NCBI GenBank assembly: GCA_017408395.1
Contig: JAFQUQ010000035.1
Coordinates: 1-41,098, forward strand
DNA length: 41,098 nucleotides
Direction: 5' to 3'
Source of the DNA: Oscillospiraceae bacterium
Lineage (GTDB): Bacteria > Bacillota > Clostridia > Oscillospirales > Ruminococcaceae
Each line of letters starts with the position of its first letter. The first letter of the stretch is position 1. The notes beneath the pieces are model-generated. The model worked only from the letters and a program-made list of their open reading frames with translations. It was not told the DNA's origin and made no database searches. Positions 1,473-36,267 of the stretch are shown piece after piece. Both the position numbers and the translations under genes were made by a program.

Positions 1473-1513
1473 GTATATAAACTAAGATTATTTATGGAAC
1501 GGAGTTGGTTAAA

Positions 1514-1849: not shown

Positions 1850-1867
1850 ATTTCAGGAGAACTTGAT

Positions 1868-3073: not shown

Positions 3074-3080
3074 AAACCGA

Positions 3081-3285: not shown

Positions 3286-3320
3286 ACGGGCGGATATTAT
3301 CCGCCCGTTATAATTTTTTT
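3286..3320 (+). terminator. Terminator of the EAL unit, right duplicate with the T-run
   Basis: Second exact copy of the 23-bp palindrome (3286-3308), here followed by TTATAA and seven Ts. The T-run overlaps the last base of the DUF4363 gene on the other strand. Joined directly to the EAL stop this would be a normal terminator, so the ancestral site was probably stem plus T-run before the repeat arrived. Confidence 0.8.
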
Positions 3321-3700
3321 CAGAAAATATTAGCCGCAAGAGGCAGCTCCTCTCTGTACAGGATTTCAAGCTGACGGCGTGCGTTGCTTATTTCAGCTTC
3401 AAGCTCGTCGTTTGCTTCCTCGCTGTAAGGACGTATTTTTGCAATGGTCACATTAAGCTCGTTAAGCTTTTCCTCACGCACCATAAATGACATCCTGCTC
3501 CGATAGCTGAACCACTCCTTTTCAAGCTCCGCCGCCTTTTCTTCCGCAGCTGCCATATCATCATTCTCGCTGTACGCTTTTACCTCATCAAGCAGGGAAA
3601 TAATATACCTGCTCTCATTCCTTATTGTAAGTGCCGCAAATGCTGAATAGGCTAGTATCCCCAGCAGAACTGATACCGCCGCAATAAGACGCTTTATCAT
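3320..3700 (-). CDS. DUF4363 family protein
   Basis: 126 residues with one N-terminal membrane helix (about residues 4-25) and an Ala/Glu-rich helical remainder that likely lies outside the membrane. Length and pattern fit DUF4363, a clostridial family usually encoded beside DUF421 genes. The start is an ATG preceded by GGAGGGAG; its first bases overlap the stop of the DUF421 gene (ATGA junction at 3697-3700), so the two are translationally coupled. Its molecular role is unknown. The pairing with DUF421 and the nearby germination operon suggest a spore or cell-envelope role, which is inference. Confidence 0.85.
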   Translation of the reverse strand: MIKRLIAAVSVLLGILAYSAFAALTIRNESRYIISLLDEVKAYSENDDMAAAEEKAAELEKEWFSYRSRMSFMVREEKLNELNVTIAKIRPYSEEANDELEAEISNARRQLEILYREELPLAANIF

Positions 3701-4386: not shown

Positions 4387-4415
4387 AAAAGTTTCCTCCG
4401 TTTTTTATCTGCTTC

Positions 4416-4445
4416 TATTTTGCTGCATAAATCTTTGGTTATTCC
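4416..4445 (-). promoter_or_regulatory. Possible sigma-G/F-type promoter for the DUF421 unit
   Basis: On the minus strand GGAATA (complement of 4440-4445), 17-nt spacer, CAAAATA (complement of 4416-4422). Compared with the forespore consensus TGAATA/CATACTA each box has one or two mismatches, so this is suggestive only. No good sigma-A promoter is visible in the same place. Confidence 0.3.
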
Positions 4446-4446
4446 T

Positions 4447-4477
4447 TGAATTAAATTAAAATTCCCTGTGCATAATA
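4447..4477 (+). promoter_or_regulatory. Probable sigma-G-type forespore promoter of the gerA operon
   Basis: TGAATT at 4447-4452, 18-nt spacer, CATAATA at 4471-4477. Each box has one mismatch to the Bacillus sigma-G consensus (TGAATA, CATACTA). It ends about 28 nt before the GTG start, and gerA-type operons are classically sigma-G-dependent. Confidence 0.6.
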
Positions 4478-4505
4478 TCAGCAGTAAACAAAAAGGAGGG
4501 CTACT

Positions 4506-6005: not shown

Positions 6006-7066
6006 CTGCAAAAATAAGCTGTAAACAGTTTCTTATACTGCTTCTTATATGCCGTATCTTTACGCTGATGACCTTTGTTCCCCTTGCTTCGGAGGGGTAT
6101 GCATTCACGTCACAGATAACGGCGATGCTGATTTCAACGGCAATTCAGGCGGTGCTTGTTATACCTGTAATTCTGTTCAGCAGGCTTTGCCCCGACACTA
6201 CCGTCACCGCCGCAATTAAGGATAAAAACAAGGCGGCAGGTATCATTGCCGCCGCTTTATATCTGATATTCTTCCTTGCACATTCCGTAAACTGCACAAT
6301 ACACTTTATGGAGTTTTTAAGGAGCAGATTTTTTTACGGTGCAGGTGCGGCAGTAATGCTTGCGGTATTTGCGGCGGCGTGTGTTTACTGTGCCTACTGC
6401 GGCATTGAGGGGCTTGCAAGAAGCGGTGCGTTTGTGCTGATATTCTTTGTGCTTACCATAATTTTAATGACGGCGGCGTCCTTCGGAAATTTCAGCACCC
6501 TTAATTTTTATTCCGATAGCCCTGACAACAGCCTGTGGAAAGCGGTAACGGACGACCTTGCACGGAACTGTGAGATTACTGCGGCGGCATTTCTCATTAA
6601 AAATACCGATAAGCCCTGCCGTAAGGGATTGTACGGTCTGCTTGCGGCAAAGCTTGTTCTTACAGCGCTGATAATGTCGCTTGTTACGGGTATTCTGGGG
6701 GGATATGCTCAGCTGACGGACTATCCTTTTATGGAGGTCGGCTCTTACAGCGAAACACGGCTTTTCCAGCGGAACGACTCACTTTATCTTATTCTGTGGA
6801 CCCTTGCGGCGGTAATAAGCGTGTCGCTTTTTATCCGCATAACCGCAGGACTTGCCTGCGAAATTGCACCGAAGCTTAAATTTGCAAGCCCTGTTGCAGG
6901 GGCGGCTGTGTTTCTGATCTCGGCACTGTCAATTTATGCGGATTACGATTTTGCAAGACTTGCAGGCTATATCTGCGGCGGCTTTGCCGTGACGGTTTTT
7001 ACGGGACTCATTCCCCTTGCGGCTTATCTTATTTTACGAAAAAAAGGAGGCGGTGCAGTTGATTAA
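6002..7066 (+). CDS. GerB-type spore germination protein, transporter-like subunit
   Basis: 354 residues, almost entirely hydrophobic, with about ten predicted membrane helices in the APC-superfamily (GerAB/ArcD/ProY) pattern. It starts with TTG at 6002, overlapping the previous stop as TTGA, with GAGGAGG close upstream. In this receptor family the B subunit carries the germinant-binding pocket. The last residues (GGGAVD) are encoded by the bases that also form the ribosome site and start of gerC, so the three genes are tightly coupled. Confidence 0.93.
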   Translation: MTAKISCKQFLILLLICRIFTLMTFVPLASEGYAFTSQITAMLISTAIQAVLVIPVILFSRLCPDTTVTAAIKDKNKAAGIIAAALYLIFFLAHSVNCTIHFMEFLRSRFFYGAGAAVMLAVFAAACVYCAYCGIEGLARSGAFVLIFFVLTIILMTAASFGNFSTLNFYSDSPDNSLWKAVTDDLARNCEITAAAFLIKNTDKPCRKGLYGLLAAKLVLTALIMSLVTGILGGYAQLTDYPFMEVGSYSETRLFQRNDSLYLILWTLAAVISVSLFIRITAGLACEIAPKLKFASPVAGAAVFLISALSIYADYDFARLAGYICGGFAVTVFTGLIPLAAYLILRKKGGGAVD

Positions 7067-8132
7067 AAAGCTGACGGCGGCTTTGATTTTTACGCTTTTT
7101 CTGGGCGGCTGTTCCGTGGGCGAGGAAGTAAACAAAAGGGCTTTCGTGCAGGTCATAGGCATTGAAAAAACGGCTGACAACTACAACGTAAGCTTACAGT
7201 TCTACAAGCCCGAAAGCAGCGACGGCAACCCCGATATTTCCAAGGCAAACTCCGACTCAGCAAACGGCAGGGGTACTACCGTTACGGAAGCTCTTTCCGA
7301 CGCTGAGCTTAAAACAGGAAAATCCCTTTTCACAGGCCACACCAAGCTACTTGTTCTCGGCGGCGGTCTTGACGACCCTTCCGACGAGCTTGCCGTACTT
7401 TACAGCAACTCATCCTTCGGAAGCGTTTCACCGTCCTGCCCCGTGGTTTACAGCGACACCCCTTCCGCTGTCACCGACACCTTTATGACCGAGGGACTCT
7501 TCTCCGCAGACAGGCTTATCAGCATTATGGACTCCGCCGTAAACAGCGGCAAAGCCTTTTACACCTCCGTTGCCTCGGTTGCGGAAAGCACGGGTCTTGC
7601 AGGCTGTGCCGCCGTCCTGCCCACAGTTTATGCGGAAAAGGAAAATGTTTATTTCAGCGGCGGAATTTTTACCGACAGATACGGTACCCACGGCACCATC
7701 CCCGAAAGCGAGCTTTACGGAATGATCATCCTTAAGGACATATTCCCGGATGACACCGAAATCACCGTTCCTGTCAGCATAAACGGCAGTCCTGCCGCCG
7801 CTTCCGTTACAGCTTCGGACTGTAAAAAGACCGCTTCCTTAAATAACGGCAGGCTTGAAATAAACGCTGTCATCCACGCCGACATACGTATCACCGAAAA
7901 CAGCCGCCGTCTTGACGAGGAACGGCTCATCAGAAAGGTCTGCGAAAATATCAAGGATGCGGTGATAAGCGCCTACTCAACGGCGGTATGGTACAACAAC
8001 TGCGATGTTTACGACATAAACAAAGTCGTCCGCCGTGACTGTCCCGAAATTTATGATGAGCTTCTCTCCGAGGACAGCTCCCTTTTAAGGGACAGCGTTC
8101 TCAATGTCAAAATCCTTGCACGGAAGGTTTAA
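7059..8132 (+). CDS. Ger(x)C family spore germination lipoprotein
   Basis: 357 residues from a TTG at 7059. This start is chosen because AAAAAGGAGG at 7041-7050 is well placed and because it gives a clean lipoprotein signal: IKK, a hydrophobic run, and lipobox LGGC with Cys18. A longer frame from 7017 lacks a ribosome site. The family pattern NKRAFVQVIGIEK follows the lipobox, and the C-terminal domain ends with a hydrophobic/charged pattern (LLRDSVLNVKI). It overlaps gerB by 8 nt. The C subunit is a lipid-anchored outer part of the germinant receptor. I see no strong terminator after it before the lepA promoter. Confidence 0.93.
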   Translation: MIKKLTAALIFTLFLGGCSVGEEVNKRAFVQVIGIEKTADNYNVSLQFYKPESSDGNPDISKANSDSANGRGTTVTEALSDAELKTGKSLFTGHTKLLVLGGGLDDPSDELAVLYSNSSFGSVSPSCPVVYSDTPSAVTDTFMTEGLFSADRLISIMDSAVNSGKAFYTSVASVAESTGLAGCAAVLPTVYAEKENVYFSGGIFTDRYGTHGTIPESELYGMIILKDIFPDDTEITVPVSINGSPAAASVTASDCKKTASLNNGRLEINAVIHADIRITENSRRLDEERLIRKVCENIKDAVISAYSTAVWYNNCDVYDINKVVRRDCPEIYDELLSEDSSLLRDSVLNVKILARKV

Positions 8133-8166
8133 GACAGAATACACCTTTATTTCTCGCAAAAAAATA

Positions 8167-8195
8167 TTTACAAATCACAGCAGATGTGGTATAAT
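8167..8195 (+). promoter_or_regulatory. Sigma-A promoter of lepA
   Basis: TTTACA at 8167-8172, 17-nt spacer, TATAAT at 8190-8195, about 35 nt before the TTG start. Confidence 0.8.
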
Positions 8196-8230
8196 ATTTA
8201 GGATTATTGAGTTTTAAAGGATGTGTTTTC

Positions 8231-10039
8231 TTGTCATACAATCAGGATAATATCAGAAATTTCTGCATTATTGCCCACATTGACCACGGTAAATCCACGC
8301 TGGCAGACCGTATTTTAGAGCTTACCTCCACCGTTGCAAAGCGTGATATGGAAGAACAGCTTCTGGATAATATGGACATTGAGCGTGAAAGAGGCATTAC
8401 CATAAAAGCACGTGCGGTACGTCTTAATTATACCGCAACGGACGGTAAGGACTACGTTTTCAACCTTATCGACACCCCCGGCCACGTTGACTTCAACTAC
8501 GAAGTTTCACGTTCACTTGTTGCCTGTGAGGGTGCTATCCTTATCGTTGACGCTTCACAGGGTATCGAGGCACAGACCCTTGCAAACACCTACCTTGCAA
8601 TCGAAAACGACCTTGAAGTTATGCCCGTAATCAACAAAATCGACCTGCCCTCCGCCGACCCTGAAAGAGTTGCTGACGAGGTTGAAAATATAATCGGCAT
8701 CCCTGCAATGGACTCTCCACGTATCTCCGCTAAAATGGGTACAAACATTGCAGAGGTACTTGAACGTGTTGTAACGGATATTCCTGCTCCTCACGGTGAT
8801 ATTGACGCTCCTCTGAAGGCGCTTATCTTCGACTGCTTCTACGACAGCTACAAGGGCGTTATTATTTACGTAAGAGTCATTGACGGCGAAATCAGGATCG
8901 GTCAGAAAATCCGTCTTATGGCAACGGGTGCTGAATTTGACGTTGTTGAAACAGGCTATATGGGCGCTACCGACCTTGTAAACGCAGGCGTGCTCAAGGC
9001 AGGCGAGGTTGGCTACATTACAGCTTCAATCAAATCCATCGGCGACACCAAAGTCGGCGATACCGTTACTGACGCTGAAAATCCCTGCGACAACGCTCTA
9101 CCCGGCTACCGTGAAGTAAACCCGATGGTATTCAGCGGCGTTTATCCTGCTGACGGTGCAAAATACGGCGACCTCCGTGACGCACTTGACAAGCTTCAGC
9201 TTAACGACGCTTCACTTTCATTCCAGCCTGAAACCTCCGTTGCTCTCGGCTTCGGCTTCCGCTGCGGCTTCCTCGGTCTTCTCCATATGGAAATTATTCA
9301 GGAGCGTCTTGAACGTGAATATAACCTTGACCTTATCACAACTGCACCGTCTGTAATTTATAAAGTAAAGCTTACAAACGGCGAAACTGTTTTCATTGAT
9401 AACCCTACAAACTATCCTGACCCTGCTGTTATCGCTTCTGCGGAAGAGCCTATGGTTAAAGCTTCTATCCTTGCGCCTACCGATTTTACAGGAAACATTA
9501 TGGAGCTGTGTCAGGAAAGACGAGGCATTTTCAAGGATATGAAGTACCTCGACGCTTCAAGAGTTGAGCTTCACTACGAGCTCCCACTCAACGAAATCGT
9601 CTACGACTTCTTTGACGCTTTAAAATCACGCACCAAGGGTTACGCTTCCTTTGACTACGAAATGATGGGCTACGTTCCCTCAAAGCTTGTCAAGCTTGAC
9701 ATTCTCCTTAACGGTGACGTTGTGGACGCACTTTCCTTTATCGTTCACGCCGACAACGCTTATAAGCGTGCAAGACGTATTGCGGAAAAGCTTAAGGACA
9801 ACATCCCCCGTCAGCTGTTTGAAATTCCTATCCAGGCTGCTGTGGGCGGCAAGGTCATCGCAAGAGAAACCGTAAAGGCTATGCGTAAGGACGTACTTGC
9901 CAAGTGCTACGGCGGTGACATTACCCGTAAGAAAAAGCTGCTTGAAAAGCAGAAAGAAGGTAAGAAACGTATGCGTCAGCTTGGTACGGTTGAAGTGCCT
10001 CAGGAAGCATTTATGGCTGTGCTTAAGCTTGATGAATAA
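8231..10039 (+). CDS. lepA: Elongation factor 4 (LepA), ribosome-associated GTPase
   Basis: 602 residues from a TTG at 8231, matching the usual ~600. An upstream in-frame TTG at 8207 is rejected: AAAGG at 8216-8220 is placed for 8231, and family members start just before NIRNF. The GTPase motifs are AHIDHGKST (residues 15-23), DTPGHVDF and NKIDLP, followed by the LepA-specific C-terminal domain with [15 protein letters not shown]. LepA acts on translating 70S ribosomes and is implicated in translation under stress and in ribosome assembly. It stands in the classic lepA-hemW gene order, but hrcA-grpE-dnaK does not follow here. A terminator and a new promoter separate it from hemW. Confidence 0.97.
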
Positions 10040-14879: not shown

Positions 14880-16274
14880 TCACTCAAACAGCTCCGCTGC
14901 GGATGGATTGTACTTCTCTTTAAGCAGCTGCTCGTCAACACGTTCAAGTGCAGATTCAGGCAGCAGCGAAAGCAGATTCCAGCCGAGGTCAAGGGTTTCC
15001 TCAATGCGTCGGTTGTCGTCATCCCTCTGCGCAACAAAATATTTCTCAAACATTCTTCCGAAGTGCATATAGCTCTTATCAAGCTCGGAAAGTTCATCTT
15101 CGCCGATAACCGACGCAAGTGCTCTTGCGTCAATAACCTTTGCATAGGAAGCAAACAGCTGGTTTGAAACTGCGGAGTGGTCTGCTCTTGTATAACCTTC
15201 GCCGATACCGTCCTTCATAAGTCGTGAAAGGGACGGCAGAACAGAAACAGGCGGATATACTCCCGACTGCTCCAGTCCTCTGTCAAGAACTATCTGACCC
15301 TCTGTAATATAACCCGTAAGGTCAGGTACAGGGTGGGTAATATCGTCGTTAGGCATTGTTAAAATCGGTATCTGTGTAATTGAGCCCTGTGCATCGTTTA
15401 TGATGCCTGCTCTTTCATAAATTGAAGCAAGGTCGGAGTAAAGATAGCCCGGATAGCCTTTTCTGCCCGGGATTTCACCCTTTGAGGATGAAAACTCTCG
15501 CACCGCTTCCGCATAAGCTGTCATATCCGTAAGGATAACAAGGATATGCATATTCTTTTCAAATGCAAGGTACTCCGCCGCCGTAAGTGCACATCTCGGA
15601 GTAAGAATTCTCTCGATTATAGGGTCGTTTGAAAGATTAAGAAACATTACGACCCTTTGCAGAACACCGCTTTCCTCAAAGCTTCTGCGGAAATAATCGG
15701 CAACGTCATTCTTTACGCCCATTGCCGCAAACACTACCGCAAAGCCCTGTCCGTTGTCCTCGGCAATTTTAGCCTGACGTACTATCTGAACGGCAAGCTT
15801 GTTATGGGAAAGACCCGAGCCTGAAAAAATCGGAAGCTTCTGACCCCTGATAAGCGTAGCCAGAGCGTCGATTGAGGAAATACCCGTGTTGATATAGTTT
15901 CTCGGATATGTTCTTGAAACAGGGTTAAGAGGCTGACCGTTTATGTCGGCATACTTTTCAGGGAAAATCTCACCCAGTCCGTCAACAGGTCGGCCTGCAC
16001 CATTGAAAACACGTCCCAGCAGCTCCGTTGACAGGGGCATTTCCATAGGCTTGCCAAGAAAACGTGTGCGTGTATTTTTAAGGGACAGACCTTTCGTGCC
16101 CTCGAAAACCTGGAGCACAACACGCTTGCCCGATATTTCAACAACACGGCCTATTCTTGTACCGCCGTTGTCAAGTCTTATCTCAACTACCTCGTCGTAA
16201 GCCGCATCTTCAACGTTGTCAAGCACAACAAGAGGTCCGTTTATTTCCTTTAATCCTACATACTGTAAGCTCAT
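14880..16274 (-). CDS. atpB: V/A-type ATP synthase subunit B (regulatory nucleotide-binding subunit)
   Basis: 464 residues, standard length. It contains the beta-barrel start ([14 protein letters not shown]), the [16 protein letters not shown] region where catalytic subunits have a P-loop, and the [12 protein letters not shown] signature. As in other B subunits, there is no intact Walker A motif. It alternates with subunit A in the cytoplasmic A3B3 ring. The ATG sits 1 nt past the subunit A stop, behind GGGAGGTAACG. Confidence 0.97.
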
Positions 16275-16275
16275 T

Positions 16276-18033
16276 TTACGTTACCTCCCGTATGGTTTTC
16301 TTTATGCCCTCTTCAACCTCTTTGTCAAGCTGCTTGAACATTTCAAGGCAGTCGTTGGGGATGTCATATTTGATCTTTATCACCTTTTCAAAAAGTCCCG
16401 TTTCAAGCAGGGCAGCCGTGCTTACACCTGCCGCAACAGCCTTTTTGCAGTTCTCGTAAAGATTAAGGATAGACCCCATCATAAGATGCTGTTTTTCAAG
16501 GGGAACATAGGTATCGTCCTTATGGTAGGCATTCTGCTGAAGGAAGCCTACACGCACCGTTCTTGCAATTTCAATGATAAGCTTCTGGTCTTCGGGAAGA
16601 ACGTCGGAGCCGATAAGCTTTACGATCTCCATAAGCTTGTTTTCCTCGTGGAGAATTTTTGTAATTTCAAGACGGTATTTAAGGAAATCCTCATCGACAT
16701 TTTCAGTATAATAATCGGAAAGATCCTCCGTATATTCGGAGTAGCTGTCGTTCCAGTTTATAGCAGGGTAATGTCTTGCGTATGCAAGCGCCTTGTCAAG
16801 CGCCCAGAAGCAGCGTACAAAACGCTTTGTATTCTGTGTTACAGGCTCGGAGAAGTCCGAACCCTGAGGTGATACCGCACCGATTATCGAAACAGAGCCT
16901 TCCGCACCGTTTAAGCTTTCAACATAGCCTGCTCTTTCGTAGAATTCGGAAATTCTCGACGGCAGATATGCAGGGAAGCCTTCCTCCGCAGGCATTTCTT
17001 CAAGACGTCCGCTGATTTCACGGAGCGCTTCCGCCCATCTGGAGGTTGAGTCAGCCATTATTGCAATATGATAACCCATATCACGGTAATATTCAGCAAG
17101 GGTGATACCCGTATAAATTGAAGCCTCTCTTGCCGCAACAGGCATATTTGACGTATTTGCAATAAGCACGGTACGGTCTGTAAGTGCCTTGCCCGTTCTC
17201 GGGTCTACAAGCTCGGAAAATTCTTCAAGAACCTGAGTCATTTCGTTTCCGCGCTCGCCGCAGCCTATATAAACGATAATATCTGCGTCGCACCATTTTG
17301 CAAGCTGGTGCTGGGTCATGGTCTTGCCTGTGCCGAAGCCGCCGGGAACTGCGGCAGTACCGCCCTTTGCAATAGGCAGTATCGTGTCGATTACACGCTG
17401 TCCCGTAATAAGGGGCTTTTCAATGGGCAGACGCTTTTTAAAGGGACGTGCCTGCTTGATAGGCCACTTCTGACAGAGAGTAAGCTCCTCAACTGTGCCG
17501 TCAGCCTTTTTAAGCTTCACAACAGTATCGTTTACCCTGTAGCTGCCGTTTTCAGCCGTCCATATAACCTCGCCCTTAAGGTCGGGGTGCACCATACATC
17601 TGTGCTCGATAACAGGAGTTTCGGGGCAGACAGCATAAATATCGCCGCCCTCAAGCATATCCCCTGTTTTTACTTTTATTGTAACATCAAACTTTTTTTC
17701 CATATCAAGGTGCGGAACTTCACTTCCCACGGAAATAAACGCACCGCTTGCCTCCTCCAGCTTTTTAAGGGGACGCTCAATTCCGTCGAAAATATTTGAA
17801 AGTATTCCGGGGCCTAAAGTCGCCGATACGGGCATACCGCTTCCCGTTACAGACTCGCCCGGTTTAAGGCCTGTTGTGGATTCGTAGACCTGAATGGTGG
17901 TTTCCTCGGCTGTGATGGAGATAACCTCGCCTACAAGCCTGTTTTCACCTGCATAAACCATTTCAAGCATACTGAAATCATCGGTATCCCTTACCTTTAC
18001 AACAGGACCGTTAATTGAATATATAGTGTTCAA
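16276..18033 (-). CDS. atpA: V/A-type ATP synthase catalytic subunit A
   Basis: 585 residues from a TTG (complement of 18031-18033). This start is chosen because AGGAGG lies 8 nt before it and the protein then opens [14 protein letters not shown] like its homologues. A longer frame to 18111 would run through the subunit E gene. The P-loop GGFGTGKT is at residues 231-238; the bulge domain typical of A subunits lies before it, and [20 protein letters not shown] follows. It is the catalytic ATPase subunit of the A3B3 head, in a coupled operon with B and E. Confidence 0.97.
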
Positions 18034-18052
18034 ATCAGTTTCCTCCTGCGTA

Positions 18053-18634
18053 TCACGCAAAGGCGTTAGCGGCAACGAATGCCTGTCTTTGTTCTTCAAT
18101 TGCAAGGTCAAAGGTCTTGTCGATTATCATACCCTTATCCTTACAGTAAACCGCAAGTCCGCCCAGCTTTATTGATTCATCTGCACAGAAAACCGTATCA
18201 GGCGATTTTACAACTTTTTTAAGAGCGTCGGCATACTTCATATCATCTGGTGAAAGACGCACCTCCGCACTGCCGTTTACATTAAGCAGAAGCAGTGTTT
18301 TGATAAGGCTGTCGGCGTAAGCATTGGTTTTTCTGTATTCCGCAAGACGCTCCTTCACCTGCTGAAAAATGCTGTCCGAAAGCTTGTCACGGTGAATGAG
18401 AATTTTTCTTTTCATATCAAGCTCAGCCGCAGAAATTTCCTTTACAAAGCCCGTACCGTTCTTTTTGCTTTTCTCGTTAAAATATTTTTCCGCCTTAAGC
18501 TCGGCCTCTGTTTCCGCTTCGGAAATTATCCTGCTCTTTTCTTCCTCCGCTTCTGCAAGCATAGCGGCAATTTTTTCGTCTACATCTTCATTTACCGCAG
18601 AAATAAACTTCTGCAGCTTTTTATCACTGAACAT
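18053..18634 (-). CDS. atpE: V/A-type ATP synthase subunit E (peripheral stalk)
   Basis: 193 residues. A long charged N-terminal helix (about 10-65, rich in Glu, Lys and Ala) is followed by a globular C-terminal domain with IKLGGLAVYCKDKGMIIDKTF, the typical subunit E ending that caps the A3B3 head. AAAGGAG precedes the ATG. With the G/H subunit it builds the stator stalk. Confidence 0.9.
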   Translation of the reverse strand: MFSDKKLQKFISAVNEDVDEKIAAMLAEAEEEKSRIISEAETEAELKAEKYFNEKSKKNGTGFVKEISAAELDMKRKILIHRDKLSDSIFQQVKERLAEYRKTNAYADSLIKTLLLLNVNGSAEVRLSPDDMKYADALKKVVKSPDTVFCADESIKLGGLAVYCKDKGMIIDKTFDLAIEEQRQAFVAANAFA

Positions 18635-18652
18635 TCTGACTGCTCCTTTTCA

Positions 18653-18961
18653 TCAGAGTTTAAGCCCGATGGCCGACTCAATATAGCGTGAAATATTTTC
18701 GGTAATATCCGAAGTCGAGTGACGGTCGGGTATTTCAAGAATAAGCGGTGATTTTCTGTTGAGTTTAAGGTCGTGCACCGTTTCACTGCACATATTCACA
18801 AGCTTTTCCGTAATAAGTATAACGGCATTGTTCTTATCCTCCATAGCCTCAAGAAGCTTTTCCTTTACTTCCTCACGCTCGTGAACGACTACGCCGTCAA
18901 TTCCCGCAAGACGCATTCCGATCCGTGTGTCAACATTGTCGCTTATCAGATAGAAACGCAT
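18653..18961 (-). CDS. atpF: V/A-type ATP synthase subunit F (central stalk)
   Basis: 102 residues with a Rossmann-like pattern beginning RFYLISDNVDTRIGMRLAGI and continuing with NNAVILITEKL, the hallmark of subunit F. It sits on subunit D in the rotor. A weak GAGAGGTG ribosome site precedes the ATG. The position between K and E fits the usual operon order. Confidence 0.92.
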   Translation of the reverse strand: MRFYLISDNVDTRIGMRLAGIDGVVVHEREEVKEKLLEAMEDKNNAVILITEKLVNMCSETVHDLKLNRKSPLILEIPDRHSTSDITENISRYIESAIGLKL

Positions 18962-18974
18962 ACCTACACCTCTC

Positions 18975-19412
18975 TTAAATAAATATCATAAGCAGTGCAA
19001 CGATAAATCCGTAAAGTGCACAGCCTTCTCCAAGAGCAACGAAGATAAGAGCCTTTGAGAAGGACTTGGGGTCCTCGCTTACAGCACCGATAGCGGCAGG
19101 TGCGGCAGCTGCTACGGCAATACCGCCGCCGATTGAGCCAAGACCTACTGCAAGTGCTGCTGCAAGATAAGCCATACCGTTATCTGATGCAGCTTCTTCA
19201 GCTTCAGCCGTTGCAGCGGCAGGTGCAGCTGCTTCAGCATAAGCGTCCATTGCAAAAGGAGCCGCTACCGTACACATTACCATTACACCGAGAAATGTGC
19301 ACACATTTCCGATAATAGCTCTCTTAAACGACTTCTTTTTCTTTATTGCGTAAACCACAGGAAGTGCAAGAAGTCCTACAATCAGCACGGGAAGTAAAAA
19401 AACATACAGCAT
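18975..19412 (-). CDS. atpK: V/A-type ATP synthase subunit K (c-ring proteolipid) with extra N-terminal helices
   Basis: 145 residues from the ATG at 19412, preceded by TGGAGG. An upstream TTG at 19427 is rejected because it overlaps that ribosome site. Two hydrophobic segments (about 2-23 and 32-52) and an Ala/Glu-rich linker (53-80) come first. The c-subunit hairpin then follows: helix 80-110 with GLGSIGGGIAV and helix 119-145 with the ion-binding glutamate E129 in ALGEGCALYGF. The Gln and Thr that accompany sodium binding in Enterococcus NtpK are not apparent, so protons are the likelier ion (inference). Similar long K subunits occur in Clostridia. Confidence 0.9.
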   Translation of the reverse strand: MLYVFLLPVLIVGLLALPVVYAIKKKKSFKRAIIGNVCTFLGVMVMCTVAAPFAMDAYAEAAAPAAATAEAEEAASDNGMAYLAAALAVGLGSIGGGIAVAAAAPAAIGAVSEDPKSFSKALIFVALGEGCALYGFIVALLMIFI

Positions 19413-19430
19413 AACATATTCCTCCAAAAA

Positions 19431-21368
19431 TCATTCTATGTTTTCATCATAGTTTATCTTAACAGGTGTAAACGGTCTTCCGTCGCCTGAATAGAAGCGT
19501 GAGAAAATCTCGTAGAATTCAAGTCTCAGCGTCTGTATTCCAACCAGCAGACCCTCTATGCCCATTACAAAAATATTGCCTATAACAATTACTATCGGTA
19601 CAGCTGCGGCAGATACCTGCTCAGCCAGAGCCATTACAACCAGCATCATTGAAGCGTGGGAAAGTACGAAACCGCCTATTCTTACAAAGGAGAGCGTGTT
19701 TGTAGCATAACCCAGCAGGAACTCAAACACCTCAAAGAAGTTTGAAGCGATAAAGTCAACTATGCCGCCCTCGGCTTCGTATTTTTTTCCTCTCACCCAG
19801 TTTGCAAGCGGCTCACGCAGGAACATCATTATCAGCGGCAGAATTATAAACACCGCCACATAAACCGGCGAGAATATCTTCATTCCCAGCAGAGTTCCCA
19901 CAGCACCGAAAAGTATCGAGCCGAAGAACATAAGCCCTGCAATACCGTTGTTTCCGAAAAGAGCTTCGGCATAGTGCTTGTTCTTTATGCCCATAACAAT
20001 GTTTATCATAATCGAGATAAGCATTATCAGCACACCTATCGCAATCGCTGCAACCAGTATCGGTGCAACGTTGTGCATAATCTTAAACGGCAGGAAGGTT
20101 ATTCCCAGCGACTCGTACACAGGGTCAAGCAGCTCTTCATATCCGAACACGCTTCCGTAAAGCAGTCCGAACACCGCACCCGAAATGCCCACTCTTGTCA
20201 GAATAGGACCAAGCGCAATCTTTTTAAACTTCCACAGCAGCGCTCCCGCTATTGCAAGAACAAGTCCCTGTCCCACGTCGCCGAACATTATTCCGAACAG
20301 CAGAGTATACGTCACCGCAACAAAAGCCGTAGGGTTTATGCCGTTATAGGACGGCAGACCGTACATCTCAACAAACATCGAGAACGGCTGTGTGAATTTG
20401 TTGTTCTTAAGCTTGACGGGAGGCTGAAGCTTTCCGTTTGCGTCCGCAGGCTGCATAAGCACCGACACGCTTTCCATTTCGTCAAACAAATCCATAAACC
20501 GCTCCGATTCACTTTTCGGAACAAAGCCGATTATGTGGAATTTATCCTCCATCACGGCAACCATTCTTCTCAGGTCAAAGGTATCGTGCTGTGATTTATA
20601 GAGGGAGAAAAGCTTGTCAAGGAACGGCTTTTCCTTTTCCACGACGCTGTTTATTTCTTGGATATAATTTTCAAAATTCGCCCTGTTTTCATCTATCATC
20701 GCCGACAGCTCCGTAAGAGCGTCCTCGGTGTTGCCGTGAACAAAATCCGCAATCCTCATTCTCTCAAAGTACAGCGAATCGAAAATCTCATCCGTTTCAG
20801 CCGCACAGGACACGGGGGTAAAGAAAAATCCCCAGTAATACTCTTCTTCCTGTGTAAAGGGAGTAAAATAAAACAGCTTATCCTCATAGTAAGGCAGTTT
20901 TTCGTAGCTGTCAGCAGGCAGTCTTCCGAAGCGTACCTTTATATATTCACAGGAAAAAATCTTCTGCATATCAATATCAAGACCCGTCAGGTGATTGACC
21001 TGCTCCAGTGCCTTTTCGTAAGCCTTGAGCTTCTCCTCAGCAGCCTTTCTGTCTGCAATAAGACCGTTGAGCCTGTTCTTTAAAGCATTAAGATGTCTTT
21101 CGTGCTTACGCATATCTGTATTTTCAATATCGCTGTAATCCGCACCCTCGTATTTTATCTTTGCCGCAGAGGATATTTCACCAAGCAGTCTCAGTATGGA
21201 AACGTATGGATTTTCCTCTTTAAGGGTACCGTAGCCGCCGTCGGAGCTGCTGTGATTTGAGGCAGGCTCCATATGGAAACAGCCGCACTCGCTGAGTATG
21301 TCCAGCACGGGGTCAAGCTCCGATGTCAGTCCCGCAATGTTGACAAACTCCATTTTTTCTATTGACAT
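19431..21368 (-). CDS. atpI: V/A-type ATP synthase subunit I (membrane stator, a-type)
   Basis: 645 residues. The N-terminal half (about 1-345) is cytoplasmic, with coiled-coil regions. The C-terminal half has about seven or eight membrane helices, including FGIMFGDVGQGL and the NTLSFVRIGGFVLSHASM stretch, whose arginine is the conserved residue facing the c-ring glutamate. It forms the ion half-channels and links to the peripheral stalks. The start ATG opens MSIEKMEFVNIAG as in homologues. It stands 18 nt before subunit K and after subunit C. Confidence 0.95.
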   Translation of the reverse strand: MSIEKMEFVNIAGLTSELDPVLDILSECGCFHMEPASNHSSSDGGYGTLKEENPYVSILRLLGEISSAAKIKYEGADYSDIENTDMRKHERHLNALKNRLNGLIADRKAAEEKLKAYEKALEQVNHLTGLDIDMQKIFSCEYIKVRFGRLPADSYEKLPYYEDKLFYFTPFTQEEEYYWGFFFTPVSCAAETDEIFDSLYFERMRIADFVHGNTEDALTELSAMIDENRANFENYIQEINSVVEKEKPFLDKLFSLYKSQHDTFDLRRMVAVMEDKFHIIGFVPKSESERFMDLFDEMESVSVLMQPADANGKLQPPVKLKNNKFTQPFSMFVEMYGLPSYNGINPTAFVAVTYTLLFGIMFGDVGQGLVLAIAGALLWKFKKIALGPILTRVGISGAVFGLLYGSVFGYEELLDPVYESLGITFLPFKIMHNVAPILVAAIAIGVLIMLISIMINIVMGIKNKHYAEALFGNNGIAGLMFFGSILFGAVGTLLGMKIFSPVYVAVFIILPLIMMFLREPLANWVRGKKYEAEGGIVDFIASNFFEVFEFLLGYATNTLSFVRIGGFVLSHASMMLVVMALAEQVSAAAVPIVIVIGNIFVMGIEGLLVGIQTLRLEFYEIFSRFYSGDGRPFTPVKINYDENIE

Positions 21369-30115: not shown

Positions 30116-30205
30116 TGGCGCGGAACAAGGGATTTGAACCCTCGCGCCGGTTACCCGACCTACTCCCTTAGCAGGGGAGCCCCTTAACCACTTGGGTAAT
30201 TCCGC
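30116..30205 (-). tRNA. tRNA-Ser (anticodon GCU)
   Basis: 90 nt including an encoded CCA end. Acceptor arms are GCGGAAT and GTTCCGC; anticodon stem CTCCC/GGGAG around loop CTGCTAA gives anticodon GCU; a long variable arm marks a class II tRNA; the T-loop is GGTTCAAATCC. It reads AGU/AGC. Confidence 0.95.
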
Positions 30206-30228
30206 AGGTTAATTATATAAAATATAAT

Positions 30229-30317
<89 letters not shown>

Positions 30318-30352
30318 ATATATATTAAGCCGCTGTTTCCAACGACTTAATT

Positions 30353-30381
30353 ATTATATCACGTTAATTACGCTTTGTCAA
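30353..30381 (-). promoter_or_regulatory. Strong sigma-A promoter of the tRNA-Ser pair
   Basis: Minus strand TTGACA (complement of 30376-30381), 17-nt spacer, TATAAT (complement of 30353-30358): a perfect consensus promoter, as expected for stable RNA. Confidence 0.9.
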
Positions 30382-30405
30382 GCCTTTTTGTAAAAATTAT
30401 TCCTT

Positions 30406-30443
30406 TTTATCAAAATCAAAGGCAGAGGTTGCCCCCTGCCTTT
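30406..30443 (-). terminator. Terminator of the dynamin operon
   Basis: Minus strand stem AAAGGCAG..GG / CC..CTGCCTTT (30443-30418) followed by a T-rich GATTTTGAT tail, 5 nt after the stop of the second dynamin gene. Confidence 0.8.
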
Positions 30444-30447
30444 ATCA

Positions 30448-32205
30448 TCAACCGTACTTTTTAAGGATCTTCATTGCGTCATCCAGTACCGTTACTGCAT
30501 TTCCGAGATGCTGCTTCATTGCTTCGCTGTTTGCATACTCAGCCATTTCCTGCGCCTGATTAAGCACGTCACGGCTTGTATCAACCTGCATCTGATAAAT
30601 GCTGTCAAGAGTCTGGATTGCATTTTCTTCCATAACCTTATACGCCTTCTTGAGGTCCTTGACGGTATTGTTTCTGATGTCGTCGTAATTTTCAAGAACC
30701 GTGTCGATAATATCGGTTGTACGCTTACGCTTGAGGATTTTCTTGAATGAAGACATAGCTTCTGACGGGAAGCTGTCGCCCTCGCCTGCGCCTGCCGCAT
30801 TCATTACCGACTGTGTTACAAGCATATTAAGGCTGTCGAAAGCGTTCTCGTCAGTACCCGCAGCAGCAGCAGCGTCATCTGCAAGTGCCGAGATACCAAG
30901 CTTATGAGAAAGCTCCTTACCCATTTTGATTATCATTTCATCAAGAGCTTCGGCGTGAATGTCAAGACACTTCTTATACGCCATACCAACCTTATCCACA
31001 AGATACGGATAGAAATATTTTTCTATATCCTCAGGGGAAGCGGTATTTCTTGACTCGTAAATGTCCTCACGGAGCTTTGAGAAGAAGCCGTACATCCACT
31101 GTTCAGCCTGCTGCTGCATTTCAACAACGCTTAAAAGTATCTTGGGACGCTGACGCTCCAGCGCATCCGCTACTGTTTCACACTCGCTGTTTACCTGCTC
31201 AGAAAGGTCCTGAAGCTTTTTCTTGTCCATTGCGATCATATCGTAGATCATATGAATTCTCGCAGCTGTATCATTAAGCATCAAATTAAGCATTGTAAGT
31301 ACACGCTGTGTTCTGATAAGGTCCTTCTGAAGAATGATCTCTCTCTTAAGGGACATCTCAAATTTAAGGAACTCGTTTTCGTAATATTCCTGGAAGCCCT
31401 TGATGTCGGGACGGTTCAGACCGATTTTACGTCTGTATTCGTCGATGCCGCTTACGCCGTAAACAAACGCCTGAGGGCATATCATTTCACAGCGCTCGCT
31501 TACACGGTTAAGTATCTTTTCAACGTCCTCCTCGGAATTCATAGCGTCTATCATATTTACAAGCACGTAAAGCTTGCTGAAGCTCATAGGTCTGATATGG
31601 CTTGCAAGGAACAGCTGCTCCGATTCGGAGAAGGGCGAAAGTGCAGACGCAACATAAATAATAGCGTCAGCGTTTACAAGATAATCCTGAACCTGTTTAT
31701 CAAGACAGTCAAGGTCGCTAAGACCAGGAGTGTCAACGATACGGATTTCTTTAAGAAGCTCCGCATTGTCCTTTATGTCAATATAATCCAGCGAATCAGG
31801 GAAAGCACGCATAAGCTTTTCAAGCTTTTCACGCACAAGGTCATCGGCTGTAAGAGTAATTCTCTGACCGTTTTTGAGCACCGCCTCAGCCAGCGGATTT
31901 TCACCGTAGCTGATTGAGTTTATGGTAAATGTTTCAGGTGCCACGTTTACGGGAGCAATGGATTTGCCGAGAATTGCGTTGATTATCGTACTCTTGCCGC
32001 GTTTGAAGTCACCCAGCACAACAAGTGAAAACGGCTCGGTACGGCGTTTCATAATGGCTTTGTCCCATTCCTTGAGGTGGTCGATGAATTCTTCGCCAAG
32101 GATACGGCATACTGCGCTGTTTGCCAGGAGCGCTCTCATTGAAGTCTGTATATACTCAATATCAGGCTCGGCAGCAGCGTAATTAAGGCTAACATCTTCC
32201 ATCAT
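30448..32205 (-). CDS. Dynamin-like GTPase, soluble paralogue (third gene of the dynamin operon)
   Basis: 585 residues. GTPase motifs: P-loop GDFKRGKST at 65-73, DTPGLSD at 158-164 and VNMIDAM, all in the bacterial dynamin-like order. It then has long helical, coiled-coil regions (about 285-585) as in dynamin stalks. Unlike its upstream paralogue it shows no hydrophobic paddle. GGAGGTG precedes the ATG, whose A is the last base of the previous gene's TGA stop (TGATG), so expression is coupled to the M48-like protein. It probably works with the other dynamin in membrane remodelling or defence; that is inference from paired bacterial dynamins such as the Leo and DynA/B systems. Confidence 0.92.
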   Translation of the reverse strand: MMEDVSLNYAAAEPDIEYIQTSMRALLANSAVCRILGEEFIDHLKEWDKAIMKRRTEPFSLVVLGDFKRGKSTIINAILGKSIAPVNVAPETFTINSISYGENPLAEAVLKNGQRITLTADDLVREKLEKLMRAFPDSLDYIDIKDNAELLKEIRIVDTPGLSDLDCLDKQVQDYLVNADAIIYVASALSPFSESEQLFLASHIRPMSFSKLYVLVNMIDAMNSEEDVEKILNRVSERCEMICPQAFVYGVSGIDEYRRKIGLNRPDIKGFQEYYENEFLKFEMSLKREIILQKDLIRTQRVLTMLNLMLNDTAARIHMIYDMIAMDKKKLQDLSEQVNSECETVADALERQRPKILLSVVEMQQQAEQWMYGFFSKLREDIYESRNTASPEDIEKYFYPYLVDKVGMAYKKCLDIHAEALDEMIIKMGKELSHKLGISALADDAAAAAGTDENAFDSLNMLVTQSVMNAAGAGEGDSFPSEAMSSFKKILKRKRTTDIIDTVLENYDDIRNNTVKDLKKAYKVMEENAIQTLDSIYQMQVDTSRDVLNQAQEMAEYANSEAMKQHLGNAVTVLDDAMKILKKYG

Positions 32206-33197
32206 CAGACACCTCCCTTTTTGTTGCTGTCAGCGCCTACGATGATCTCGCATCGTACTTCAAGCGCCTGCTTTGTAACTGTGTGAACGTCAACCTTGTC
32301 GATGTCGGTTCTCCAGTTGAAAAGCACTTCACAATTAAGGAATTCCATACCTGCGAAAACTCTCTTTTCAAGCTTGCTCCAGGATGAATCAAGGTTAATG
32401 CTTCTTGCAGGGGTAACGTGAAGAGTTTCAAACATCTTTGCTACCCTTTCGCTGTCGTATCCGCAGCCTGTACGGCTGTAAATATCGTTGAGCCCCTTAC
32501 TGTGTACGCTTGCCATAATTTCAGCGTAATTCTTCGGATTATCGCAGCAGATGATACCTGCTCTGTCGGCTGTTACGTCTGAAAGGGTTATCCAGTCAAA
32601 CATTGCCGCTGACATTTTACCTGCCGATTCATCGGCAACGGGGTTGATAATGTCATTATCCATAACAAGTCCGAAGCTTGGAGCCGCCATATAGTAAATA
32701 CAGTGGTTGTTCTGGATATGACCGCACTCACGGCCTATAAGGAAGCGTAATTCTTCCTTTGTGCAGGCTTCACAGAGCGCTGTTGTAAGCACTACCGCAG
32801 GGTCGGTATTTTCTGCGGAAAGTGTGTAAATTTCAAGCTTTGCCGAGTTTCTTACGAAAACCGCAGGCATATTTATTTTAAGACGCTCGGAGCAGTCCTT
32901 TGCAGCCTTATAAACATCGGGGTACTGTGTAGCACCTGCCTGGCTTGCGGTCTGGAAGACACGCTTGAACTTATTTGGAATCTCGTTTGTGACAAGATTT
33001 TTATAGATTTTATTCCAGCCCGAATGGGTGTTGAATTTCTGACGAAGTGAGAAATCCGCATCAAATGCATAGTCTATTCTGCCGCCGATAATGTGATCCT
33101 TGAAGGTTCTTGTTCGTGCGGAGAGGTATGCGGCAAAGCCCGTATCAATTTCGAGCAGCGGATTTTGTCCTGCGTATGAATCAAGTACGCTGTTCAT
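32205..33197 (-). CDS. M48-metallopeptidase-like protein with altered zinc site
   Basis: 330 residues, GGAGG before the ATG, no signal peptide and no clear membrane helix. The middle resembles the M48 core: EELRFLIGRECGHIQNNH at about 148-165 stands where M48 enzymes have [IV]-G-H-E-x-x-H, and LSDVTADRAGI at about 205-215 stands where they have the E-x-x-A-D-R-x-G ligand motif. Here the first histidine is R156 (RECGH) and the third ligand is D207 instead of Glu. Two of three expected ligands thus differ, so it may be a pseudoprotease with a scaffold or sensor role. It is encoded between two dynamins, 34 nt after the first and overlapping the second. An M48 fold is inferred from motifs only. 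Confidence 0.75.
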   Translation of the reverse strand: MNSVLDSYAGQNPLLEIDTGFAAYLSARTRTFKDHIIGGRIDYAFDADFSLRQKFNTHSGWNKIYKNLVTNEIPNKFKRVFQTASQAGATQYPDVYKAAKDCSERLKINMPAVFVRNSAKLEIYTLSAENTDPAVVLTTALCEACTKEELRFLIGRECGHIQNNHCIYYMAAPSFGLVMDNDIINPVADESAGKMSAAMFDWITLSDVTADRAGIICCDNPKNYAEIMASVHSKGLNDIYSRTGCGYDSERVAKMFETLHVTPARSINLDSSWSKLEKRVFAGMEFLNCEVLFNWRTDIDKVDVHTVTKQALEVRCEIIVGADSNKKGGV

Positions 33198-33231
33198 ATG
33201 TTACTACCTCCTTAAACATTATGCAGACCGC

Positions 33232-35283
33232 TTATTCTGCGTTATCCGTAAGCTTCTGATGCAGATTGTAGGTTTCTGCAAGCAGAGCGCCCGTGTACTC
33301 GGCAATGTTATGGAGCTTTTCCTTTTCATTGTCGGACATGGATTTCTTTTCAGCCTTAAGCTGATTAAGGCTGTCGAGGGTCTGCTGTGTATCAAGAAGG
33401 ATAATTTCTGTTTCCTGTTCAATCTTCTTCTTAAGTCCTTCGAATGAAGCAAATACCTGCTGACGTACTGTTTCGGAGAAGTCGCTGGAAATCTTCATTT
33501 CGTGGAACTGCTTCTGAACGGAGCTCTTGAAGCCTGCCTTGTACTTGTCGATACGCTCCTGAACCAGAAGCTTATCTACGGAGAATTTACCCGTAAATGT
33601 ACCTGCAAGGCCTGCAATTGCCATAAGGCACAGTGTAACAGGACCTGCGGCTGTAACGCCCAGGACGCCTGCAAGGTAAACTGCGGCATAGAAGGTTGCG
33701 TAGAAGCCTGCAAAGCCTGCCGCACCGCCGAGAAGTGCACCCTTTATGCCTGCTTCTCTGAAGCCGATGAAAAGACCGCCTGTACCTACGCTGCCGATAG
33801 CAACACCGATGATCTGGTCAACAACACCGCCGTTACGTGTGTGCTTGGCAGGTACGGCAAACATTTCCTGAATTCTTGCAACGGAAGCAAAGAACTCGTC
33901 TTCAAAGGACTGGAGTCTTGCAGCTTCGTCGCTGAGGGCAATGTTGATCTCATTCTGGATCTGCTCACAGATAAGCTGAGCCTTATTTTCAATGTTTTCC
34001 TTGATTTTTTCCGTAAGCTTGGAGTAAACGATTTTAAGCTTATCTCTCTTGAGGTCGTCGGCAGACATAGGATAATCGTCGATAACCTGCATAGCGGTCT
34101 CTTCGATCTGTGTCCAATAGCCGTCAAGGATAGGCTGTAAGCTTTCAAATACGTTGTTTGCGGCATCGTTGATACGAACGAACTCAGCACGCTTCTTTGT
34201 ACGGATCTCGTCGATTTCTTCGATAGCTGCGGTATATTTATCCATAAACTCATCGGTTTCCATCATAAGAGCGTTCTCTCTGATAACGATGGAGTTGATG
34301 ATCTCGGAGCCTGAGCTGATGATTTTGTTTGCAAGAATCTGGAGAGTGATAGCGCCTCGTTCCTGAGTAAGCATAGTTTCAAGCACGGACTCAAACTTAG
34401 GGAAATTACTTTCCTCAAGCATAGCCATATCGCCGCTTTCCTTGGCCATAAGCGCTTTCTTTGCGTAAACGCCGATAACCTTCGGCTTGCCTATCTTACG
34501 CTTGTAAACGGCAAATTCCTTTGAGTTCTCACCCATTACCGCCTTTGCCTTTTCCATAACGTAGCTGCCGATACGCTTTTCTACCGTTTCAACAATTCTG
34601 TCTTCGTCCTCCTTTGAGAAGGTACCGAAGCAGTTTACGGCAAAAATAATACGTCCCAGGTCGCTTGTAAGCATTTTCTTTTCAAGGAATTCCTTTTCAA
34701 ACTGTGAGAAAGGAGAGTTTGCGCTGATAACAAAAACAGCAGCGTCGATTTCAGGAAGAATGGAGAGTGTAACGTTGGTCATCTGCTCGTCATCATTAAG
34801 ACCCGGAGTGTCGATGATGTCAACGTTGTTCTTACAGAAATCGGTAGCGTAGTAAACGGTAGCCTGCTTTACGGTTTCAGCTCTCATTTCCGATTCAAAG
34901 GAAAGCTTTGTAACGTAATCGGCAAGCTTGTCGATGTCAACTCTTTCGCTTGCACCGTTCTTGTACTCAACCTCAACGTAAGGGTTGTCGCTGTATGTAA
35001 CACGGTTGAGCGTAGCAGTCGCAGGGAGAACGTCGGCAGGAAGCACCTCCTCGCCGAGAAGTGCGTTGATGAGGGTACTCTTGCCTCGTTTGAATTCGCC
35101 GACAATAGCAACCTCAAAGTGCTCATTGGCAACTTTTTCAATAGTATCCGCAATTGATTTTGCGGCATTGTTAAGATCAAGATCTTCGCTGTATTCCTTA
35201 AGCTGGTACAGACAATCGGTAAGCTCGCCGACCGTCTGTTTAAATGCGGCGTAACTGCCGTAATTCAGACCTTGCTGTTCCAT
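33232..35283 (-). CDS. Dynamin-like GTPase with hydrophobic paddle (first gene of the dynamin operon)
   Basis: 683 residues from ATG at 35283, chosen because AAGGAGGAG lies directly upstream; the open frame extends 26 codons further but without a ribosome site. GTPase motifs are GEFKRGKST at 62-70, DTPGLND at 158-164 and VNCFGT. The helical stalk is interrupted by a Gly/Ala-rich hydrophobic region at about 487-564, the likely membrane-inserting paddle, as in bacterial dynamin-like proteins and mitofusins. It likely tubulates or fuses membranes in a GTP-dependent way. A TTGACT-18-TATAAT promoter lies upstream, divergent from hisA. Confidence 0.92.
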   Translation of the reverse strand: MEQQGLNYGSYAAFKQTVGELTDCLYQLKEYSEDLDLNNAAKSIADTIEKVANEHFEVAIVGEFKRGKSTLINALLGEEVLPADVLPATATLNRVTYSDNPYVEVEYKNGASERVDIDKLADYVTKLSFESEMRAETVKQATVYYATDFCKNNVDIIDTPGLNDDEQMTNVTLSILPEIDAAVFVISANSPFSQFEKEFLEKKMLTSDLGRIIFAVNCFGTFSKEDEDRIVETVEKRIGSYVMEKAKAVMGENSKEFAVYKRKIGKPKVIGVYAKKALMAKESGDMAMLEESNFPKFESVLETMLTQERGAITLQILANKIISSGSEIINSIVIRENALMMETDEFMDKYTAAIEEIDEIRTKKRAEFVRINDAANNVFESLQPILDGYWTQIEETAMQVIDDYPMSADDLKRDKLKIVYSKLTEKIKENIENKAQLICEQIQNEINIALSDEAARLQSFEDEFFASVARIQEMFAVPAKHTRNGGVVDQIIGVAIGSVGTGGLFIGFREAGIKGALLGGAAGFAGFYATFYAAVYLAGVLGVTAAGPVTLCLMAIAGLAGTFTGKFSVDKLLVQERIDKYKAGFKSSVQKQFHEMKISSDFSETVRQQVFASFEGLKKKIEQETEIILLDTQQTLDSLNQLKAEKKSMSDNEKEKLHNIAEYTGALLAETYNLHQKLTDNAE

Positions 35284-35366
35284 AAAACTCCTCCTTGTGT
35301 CTATATAATCAAAAACAAAATGTAATATACGTTCAAAGTACACAATTTGCTCAATATACATATTAA

Positions 35367-35396
35367 ATTATAACACCTTCTTATACAAAAAGTCAA
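35367..35396 (-). promoter_or_regulatory. Sigma-A promoter of the dynamin operon
   Basis: Minus strand TTGACT (complement of 35391-35396), 18-nt spacer, TATAAT (complement of 35367-35372), giving a leader of about 75 nt. Confidence 0.75.
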
Positions 35397-35411
35397 TATT
35401 TAAAAGAAGAT

Positions 35412-35440
35412 TTGCAAAATTTCTAATAAAAGTGTATAAT
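35412..35440 (+). promoter_or_regulatory. Sigma-A promoter of hisA
   Basis: TTGCAA at 35412-35417, 17-nt spacer, TATAAT at 35435-35440 with an extended -10. A run of eight Ts at 35451-35458 follows in the leader. Confidence 0.75.
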
Positions 35441-35493
35441 TAAACAGGTGTTTTTTTTACAAATTGAATATTTTATGAACGGAGAATCCTAAA

Positions 35494-36267
35494 ATGAACT
35501 TCAGACCTTGCATTGACATACACAACGGAAAGGTTAAACAGATAGTGGGCGGCAGTCTTGCAGACGCAGGAAACGCCGCTGACGAGAACTTTGTTTCCGA
35601 ATACGACGCAGGCTTTTACGCCGAGCTTTACAAAAGCCGCAATTTAAAGGGCGGTCACATTATCATCCTCAACGCCGCAGGCTCCGAATTTTACGAGGCT
35701 GACCGTCAGCAGGCGTTCAGGGCGCTTTCCGCATACAGCGGCGGCCTTCAGGTAGGCGGCGGCATAAACGCAGACAACGCCGCAGATTACCTCAACGCAG
35801 GCGCTTCACACGTTATCGTCACATCCTACGTTTTCAAGGACGGTGCCGTAAACTTCGACAATCTTAAAAAGCTTACCGACGCTGTGGGCAAGGATAAGCT
35901 TGTTCTTGACCTGTCCTGCCGAAAAAAAGAGGACGGCTACTATATTGTAACCGACCGCTGGCAGAAGTTTACAGATGTCAAGCTTAACGAGGATACTCTC
36001 GATATGTTTTCATCCTACTGCGACGAATTTCTTATTCACGCCGTAGATGTCGAAGGCAAGGCACGGGGCATCGAAAAGGGTCTTGCCGAAATGCTGGGCG
36101 GATGGGGTAAAATCACCCTTACCTATGCAGGCGGCATCGGCTCATACGCTGACCTTGACATACTCAATGAGCTTGGCAGAGGAAAAATCAATTTTACCGT
36201 AGGAAGTGCCCTTGACATTTTCGGCGGCACACTTGATTTTGAGAAAATTGCCGCTTACGGCAGATAA
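35494..36267 (+). CDS. hisA: ProFAR isomerase HisA, eukaryotic (HIS6) type
   Basis: 257 residues, a TIM-barrel isomerase of histidine synthesis. It opens FRPCIDIHNGKVKQIVGG, the form seen in fungal and plant HIS6, instead of the bacterial PAIDL start. Likely catalytic aspartates are D8 and D139 (LVLDLSCRKK); phosphate-binding glycines lie in QVGGGI (about 86-91) and YAGGIGS (211-217). It converts ProFAR to PRFAR. It stands alone, far from any his operon, with its own promoter; ACGGAGAAT precedes the ATG. Some Clostridia and a few other bacteria carry this eukaryote-like form, pointing to old lateral transfer (inference). Confidence 0.92.
   Translation: MNFRPCIDIHNGKVKQIVGGSLADAGNAADENFVSEYDAGFYAELYKSRNLKGGHIIILNAAGSEFYEADRQQAFRALSAYSGGLQVGGGINADNAADYLNAGASHVIVTSYVFKDGAVNFDNLKKLTDAVGKDKLVLDLSCRKKEDGYYIVTDRWQKFTDVKLNEDTLDMFSSYCDEFLIHAVDVEGKARGIEKGLAEMLGGWGKITLTYAGGIGSYADLDILNELGRGKINFTVGSALDIFGGTLDFEKIAAYGR

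Follow-up and report, generated by a model that had tools for sequence, protein, structure and literature searches.

A conserved dynamin-pair operon of Clostridia with a putative former M48 metallopeptidase as its middle gene

To our knowledge, few regulators of bacterial dynamins have been described. The mitochondrial protease OMA1 is a member of the M48 peptidases. Under stress, Oma1 cuts the mitochondrial dynamin Opa1 (PMC11885689, in the part cited here), and in Campylobacter the paired dynamins assemble into a lipid-binding 2:2 complex, which has been proposed as a membrane tether (PMC6104087, likewise in part). Here, we describe a three-gene operon of an Oscillospiraceae bacterium (assembly GCA_017408395.1, contig JAFQUQ010000035.1, positions 1 to 41,098; this whole stretch of 41,098 nucleotides (nt) is hereafter the window), in which an M48-like gene lies between two dynamin genes, dynA and dynB. 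Operons of paired dynamins are known, and what is new is the middle gene, apparently a former M48 protease; no description of this trio was found in the open-access literature, subscription papers and preprints being outside the search. We give about an even chance to the view that this is a clade-core operon for membrane or envelope maintenance, in which a heterotypic dynamin pair is served by the former protease as a non-catalytic regulator.

The three genes lie on the reverse strand in the order dynA (33232-35283; 683 amino acids (aa), a BDLP-like dynamin whose start is preceded by AGGAGG), middle gene (32205-33197; 330 aa) and dynB (30448-32205; 585 aa), spaced by 34 nt and then by a 1-nt TGATG overlap. 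This spacing, and the enclosure of an M48-like gene by two paralogous dynamin genes, had been read from the letters alone in an earlier note on this DNA; both could be reproduced, as could the matching P-loops, GEFKRGKST in dynA (35074-35100, reverse strand; all nine residues identical in 28 of 28 aligned rows) and GDFKRGKST in dynB (31987-32013, reverse strand), and the DTPGL motif, which occupies residues 158-162 in both proteins.

The operon is real, and it is conserved. When GTDB genomes were scanned with the middle protein, 54 loci were returned, titled Oscillospiraceae, Ruminococcus or unclassified Clostridia bins, and in all 54 the middle gene adjoined dynA or dynB in the order dynA-middle-dynB, missing partners being at contig ends (43 loci with three full genes were used for feature comparison). 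Occurrence by genome was examined in 247 genomes of the family, 391 at the class level and 299 at the phylum level; the family set overlaps with the scan, at least 15 of the 54 loci being genes of its genomes. Profile matches to the middle gene were present in 43 of the 247, 6 of them only weak and in long open reading frames (ORFs). The remaining 37 genomes had a strong middle gene, accompanied by a strong dynB in all 37 and a strong dynA in 36, and the three genes were adjacent in order on one contig in 35. The three-gene set that the earlier note had proposed to look for across Clostridia genomes does recur, and its worry that homologous dynamin pairs might usually lack the middle gene was not borne out within the family, where no genome with a strong DynA and DynB pair was without it (36 of 36 have it). 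The exceptions to adjacency were G239, with the trio split over contigs, and G070 (L096:1-4462), which holds a piece of the active-type operon described below: a truncated M48 piece of 202 aa, with HECGH and the Glu present, beside dynB. In one related genus the middle gene was found in 13 of 13 genomes, and in the window's own genus in four of five others, the miss being a genome that is 79% complete. The class-level search gave 13 matches outside the family, of which 10 were opened (G314, G379 and G592 were left); two proved to be the operon, and another, L131, holds an M48 gene next to an Eleos pair. A phylum-level dynB search (expect value (E) up to 1e-40) returned, apart from the window itself, a single more distant dynamin pair, that of G878 from another part of the phylum, and no M48 gene lies beside it. 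Thus, the operon is narrow in range and fixed where sampled in depth. Weak M48 matches in G124, G254, G087 and G185:C12 had no dynA or dynB profile match beside them (four of eight weak places were opened), and tree-distance correlations of 0.935-0.967 were set aside as evidence because co-inherited genes would show them in any case. One locus (L037:8305-8874, the same locus as G163) has a 189-aa ORF, with no match in Pfam, between its middle gene and dynB, and G150 has a 428-base gap at this place.

The middle protein matched Pfam Peptidase_M48 at 33.1 bits (cut-off 20.3), and its predicted model appeared to retain the M48 fold, as judged from VIA-align lists. Its zinc site is broken, since the HExxH motif reads R-E-C-G-H (residues 156-160; 32718-32732, reverse strand), a point absent from the earlier reading, and the third-ligand motif ExxAD reads DVTAD (residues 207-211; 32565-32579, reverse strand). 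Among 60 inactive rows (59 distinct) used for the tree and the zinc-site counts, the first His of HExxH was found in none, the second in 24 and the third-ligand Glu in none; a separate 54-row comparison, which includes L059 and L062, had no first His either. Conserved residues of the middle protein include N163, H165, R212, R296 and R315. Left out of the 60 rows were L019 (middle gene split in two), L059 (truncated at the contig end), L096 and L097, and L062 was missing, probably shadowed by another ORF. It should be noted that the middle gene of L019 (3316-4302) and dynA of L049 (4767-6901) are each in two pieces, through assembly error or decay. The middle gene is under purifying selection, on the basis of 16 chosen pairs (in one, L012/L013, two genes had a synonymous divergence too high for calculation).

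In three genomes, G079 (family f1), G627 (f42) and G288 (f41), the operon has the same gene order and an M48 gene that is intact. In the tree, whose midpoint root serves only for display, all 60 inactive rows fell on one side of a branch with 100/100 support, and nearest outside them were three active, dynamin-flanked M48 proteins; the branch of the inactive group is long (1.66), and the tree program warns of long-branch joins. The middle protein most likely descends from an M48 metallopeptidase of the same operon that lost its zinc site, and this ancestor might have cut the dynamins. In two active-type operons, an extra dynamin gene and zinc-ribbon genes were observed upstream (L095:5234-8189 and L130:2460-4809). 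Elsewhere, L134:6143-12674 and L136:4907-10381 contain runs of M48-like genes, an intact HExxH copy followed by degenerate copies, adjoined by P-loop genes, one of which in L134 matches DO-GTPase2; these are a second case of apparently dead M48 proteins beside GTPases.

Both partners are members of the dynamin superfamily, with Pfam Dynamin_N scores of 108.2 bits for DynA and 79.7 bits for DynB (cut-off 27), and they align with each other at E = 6e-28 (33% identity over 230 residues). Their best solved sequence match was the Nostoc BDLP (2j68/2j69; E = 7.6e-29 for DynA versus 2j68), and the DynB model appeared to match the Nostoc BDLP1 fold along its length. The scores against the B. subtilis DynA family NF052648 were 58.1 and 42.4 bits compared with a cut-off of 1600, and a fused double dynamin of that type was rejected, the two being separate genes here. 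A hydrophobic paddle-like stretch was found by a hydrophobicity scan in DynA, at the expected place of a paddle (residues 533-563; 33595-33687, reverse strand; 19-residue mean up to 1.89), whereas no stretch of DynB exceeded the same threshold (maximum 1.13), which bears out the earlier description of one dynamin with a paddle and one without. The G1 and G3 motifs were intact in both proteins, whereas the G4 motif differed. In DynA it reads NCFG, without the guanine-reading Asp (34624-34635, reverse strand), in 58 of 58 readable rows of the inactive type (two dynA genes, in L043 and L051, were unreadable), whereas the three active-type rows have NRID, NKID and TGID and all keep the Asp; in DynB the motif is intact (NMID in the window), with the Asp kept in 61 of 61 rows. 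The loss in DynA together with the retention in DynB suggests altered base recognition by DynA, with DynB as the main GTPase.

Genes of two blastp clusters follow dynB on the same strand, the first in 10 and the second in nine of the 54 loci, and their members in L016 are YceG_bac and TelA (Pfam). A short YceG (an ORF of 518-567 aa, plus one copy that a contig end shortens to 441 aa) was present in 15 of the 37 family carriers and in none of the 210 other genomes (Fisher 2.4e-14), or by genus in 6 of 17 versus 0 of 109 (2.5e-6), figures that should be taken as indicative because the genomes are related, the split into short and long was post hoc and one non-carrier frame was placed among the long ones. 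TelA adjoined YceG in seven of the seven such loci opened. The long YceG had no link to the operon (4 of 37 carriers, 16 of 210 others), and TelA was rejected as a specific partner (19 of 37 carriers versus 97 of 210 others); only the short YceG is specific, because TelA alone is widespread. As far as we know, the function of YceG and TelA is poorly understood, so that a dynamin pair tied to them would be of interest for these proteins as well; YceH of B. subtilis is a TelA protein. The B. subtilis genes yceG and yceH are part of a SigW, SigB and SigM operon (PMC3498285, in the part cited).

Taken together, these observations could be accommodated as follows. At the cytoplasmic membrane, DynA and DynB would most likely join in a heterotypic complex, comparable to Campylobacter DLP1/DLP2, with DynA inserting in the membrane and DynB hydrolysing GTP. 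The middle protein would most likely bind one dynamin without cutting it and thereby set when or where the pair assembles, and the module would probably serve in envelope stress, joined by YceG and TelA in several genera. Membrane remodelling, complex formation, the regulatory role and the stress trigger are all steps that we infer. The earlier suggestion that the middle protein regulates or anchors the pair holds in part: such a role fits, because a protease fold without its catalytic site stays under purifying selection. Its other suggestion, a membrane-stress or defence module, gains indirectly on the stress side from the link to YceG and TelA, which is absent from most carriers, whereas the defence side found little support, as set out below. 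A more specific scenario, which we regard as a tentative and somewhat doubtful one, is that an M48 peptidase once cleaved the dynamin pair, and that in one clade of gut Clostridia it became a non-cutting clamp, with the larger dynamin losing its Asp, in an envelope-stress machine with YceG and TelA.

Several points weigh against an envelope-maintenance operon with a non-catalytic regulator. The division of YceG by length was set after the lengths had been seen, and a 376-aa YceG frame in the non-carrier G149 was counted as long (the other reading gives 15 of 37 versus 1 of 210). More than half of the carriers (22 of 37) have no short YceG, the window genome (71% complete) has neither YceG nor TelA, and TelA occurs in 116 of the 247 genomes. 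DynB is the only dynamin of the pair that was modelled, and its model is moderate (predicted local distance difference test (pLDDT) 71.6, predicted template modelling score (pTM) 0.52), residues 437-496 being mostly of very low confidence. The loss of the zinc site and the change of the DynA G4 motif are one event each, on a single branch, and their coincidence is a sample of one because each happened once. Finally, G070 has no dynA, the approximately 2 kb before its M48 piece being filled by an unrelated 625-aa ORF; either the assembly is at fault here or the operon has decayed or been rearranged.

A different reading is that the trio is an anti-phage module of the Eleos type (LeoA and LeoBC) or delays lysis in the manner of DynA, as phage lysis is delayed by B. 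subtilis DynA (PMC8844932, in the part cited). Both dynamins do match the PADLOC LeoA/LeoBC profiles (67.5/65.9 bits for dynA, 50.8/33.9 bits for dynB), but with the PADLOC profiles a genuine Eleos pair in L131 reached 338 and 375 bits, and the window scores against NCBIfam LeoA/HP0731 (NF041922) were 34.8 and 23.6 bits compared with a cut-off of 325, so that membership in Eleos was rejected. None of the three window neighbours tested matched PADLOC, an island further off being outside that scope, and the presence of the middle gene in all 13 genomes of one related genus is unlike a strain-variable defence gene. No plasmid record matched over 80% of the middle protein, and no viral contig was found, apart from one ambiguous, unannotated 8.8-kb scaffold named 'Bacteriophage sp.' (L146, MT836781.1; label unverified), which carries the trio within 175-8678. 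Genes on the other strand after this trio resemble, by eye only, an integrase, an excisionase and a PemK-type toxin, and the record may be bacterial, a scaffold from the border of an integrated element. We therefore consider an anti-phage role improbable, and the defence half of the earlier proposal is poorly supported. Apart from this, an intact M48 gene lies 257 bp upstream of the genuine Eleos pair (L131:5553-10736; LeoBC 338, LeoA 375 bits), a neighbourhood that may be due to chance because L133, of the same genus, has a related M48 gene with no dynamin profile match beside it.

A role in secretion or in the release of vesicles, which has been proposed for LeoABC, seems to us no more probable than phage defence: the likeness in tandem dynamins is there, but no secreted cargo gene was noticed among the listed flanking-gene clusters, and no segment of the middle protein exceeds the hydrophobicity threshold (no signal-peptide search was made). 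Still less probable is that the middle protein has kept enzymatic activity through a metal or cysteine site in a new arrangement. Such a site could be sought among Glu157, His165 and Asp211, each conserved in 59 of the 60 inactive rows, Cys102 and Cys217, found in all 60, and a Cys at position 156, found in 38. However, the Glu ligand and the two His have either been lost or vary between rows, Glu157 is also gone in one row (L104), and Cys102 and Cys217 are present in the three active forms too. It is very improbable that the middle gene only rides along as a passenger in the transcript of the dynamins, for although it evolves faster (mean column identity 59% versus 66% and 76% for the dynamins), it is under purifying selection and no strong match was found away from dynB in the 37 family carriers.

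The earlier note had also placed one promoter and one terminator at the ends of the set. A promoter-like TTGACT-18-TATAAT site is present upstream of dynA (35367-35396, reverse strand; 11 of 12 consensus positions), and a terminator-like hairpin of 12 pairs with a T-rich tail directly follows dynB (30417-30444, reverse strand), which agrees with that placement; the site counts by themselves are weak support, because the scan of 30200-35700 gave 12 and 8 sites compared with shuffled means of 8.3 and 5.5. Two tRNA-Ser genes (30116-30317) lie just downstream, preceded by a promoter-like site with 12 of 12 positions (30381-30353), and beside the operon is a divergent hisA-like gene (His_biosynth; 35494-36267). 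A blastp cluster whose start resembles this gene by eye was upstream in 7 of the 54 loci. V-type ATPase genes (14880-21368), with GerA and LepA elsewhere in the window, indicate an ordinary chromosomal setting.

In comparison with known systems, Nostoc BDLP1 (2j68/2j69) is the best solved match of both dynamins, DynB being predicted to share its fold, and differs in that the deposit is one protein; we know of no M48 partner for it. Campylobacter jejuni DLP1/DLP2 (5owv, 5oxf) are alike in being two unequal dynamins encoded as a pair, and dynA matches both chains (E = 1e-15 and 8.9e-15), but no M48 gene is named in the cited part of that report. Eleos/LeoABC is alike in its tandem dynamins and weak profile matches and differs in the scores, those of the window being far below a genuine pair and the NCBIfam cut-off; the descriptions of leoABC, as far as they are cited here, contain no M48-fold gene. 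The B. subtilis operon yceCDEFGH shares the YceG_bac and TelA families, which occur with the present operon in related genomes, whereas dynamins are not among its genes in the cited part of PMC3498285. The M48 peptidases BepA, HtpX and ZMPSTE24 resemble the middle protein in fold and Pfam family, and the middle protein differs from them in lacking a zinc site and any hydrophobic segment above threshold. The likeness to OMA1-OPA1 is an analogy only, the protease site of the window's middle protein being dead and no cleavage being known. By this analogy, the active-type operons could be a bacterial parallel to Oma1/Opa1 and the window type its non-cutting descendant. If true, this would be a bacterial counterpart of protease-controlled dynamins, rewired to the form of a non-cutting clamp, and a case to set beside those of mitochondria; a protease-derived partner fixed between two dynamin genes, with relatives that still bear the zinc site, would offer a direct test of dynamin control.

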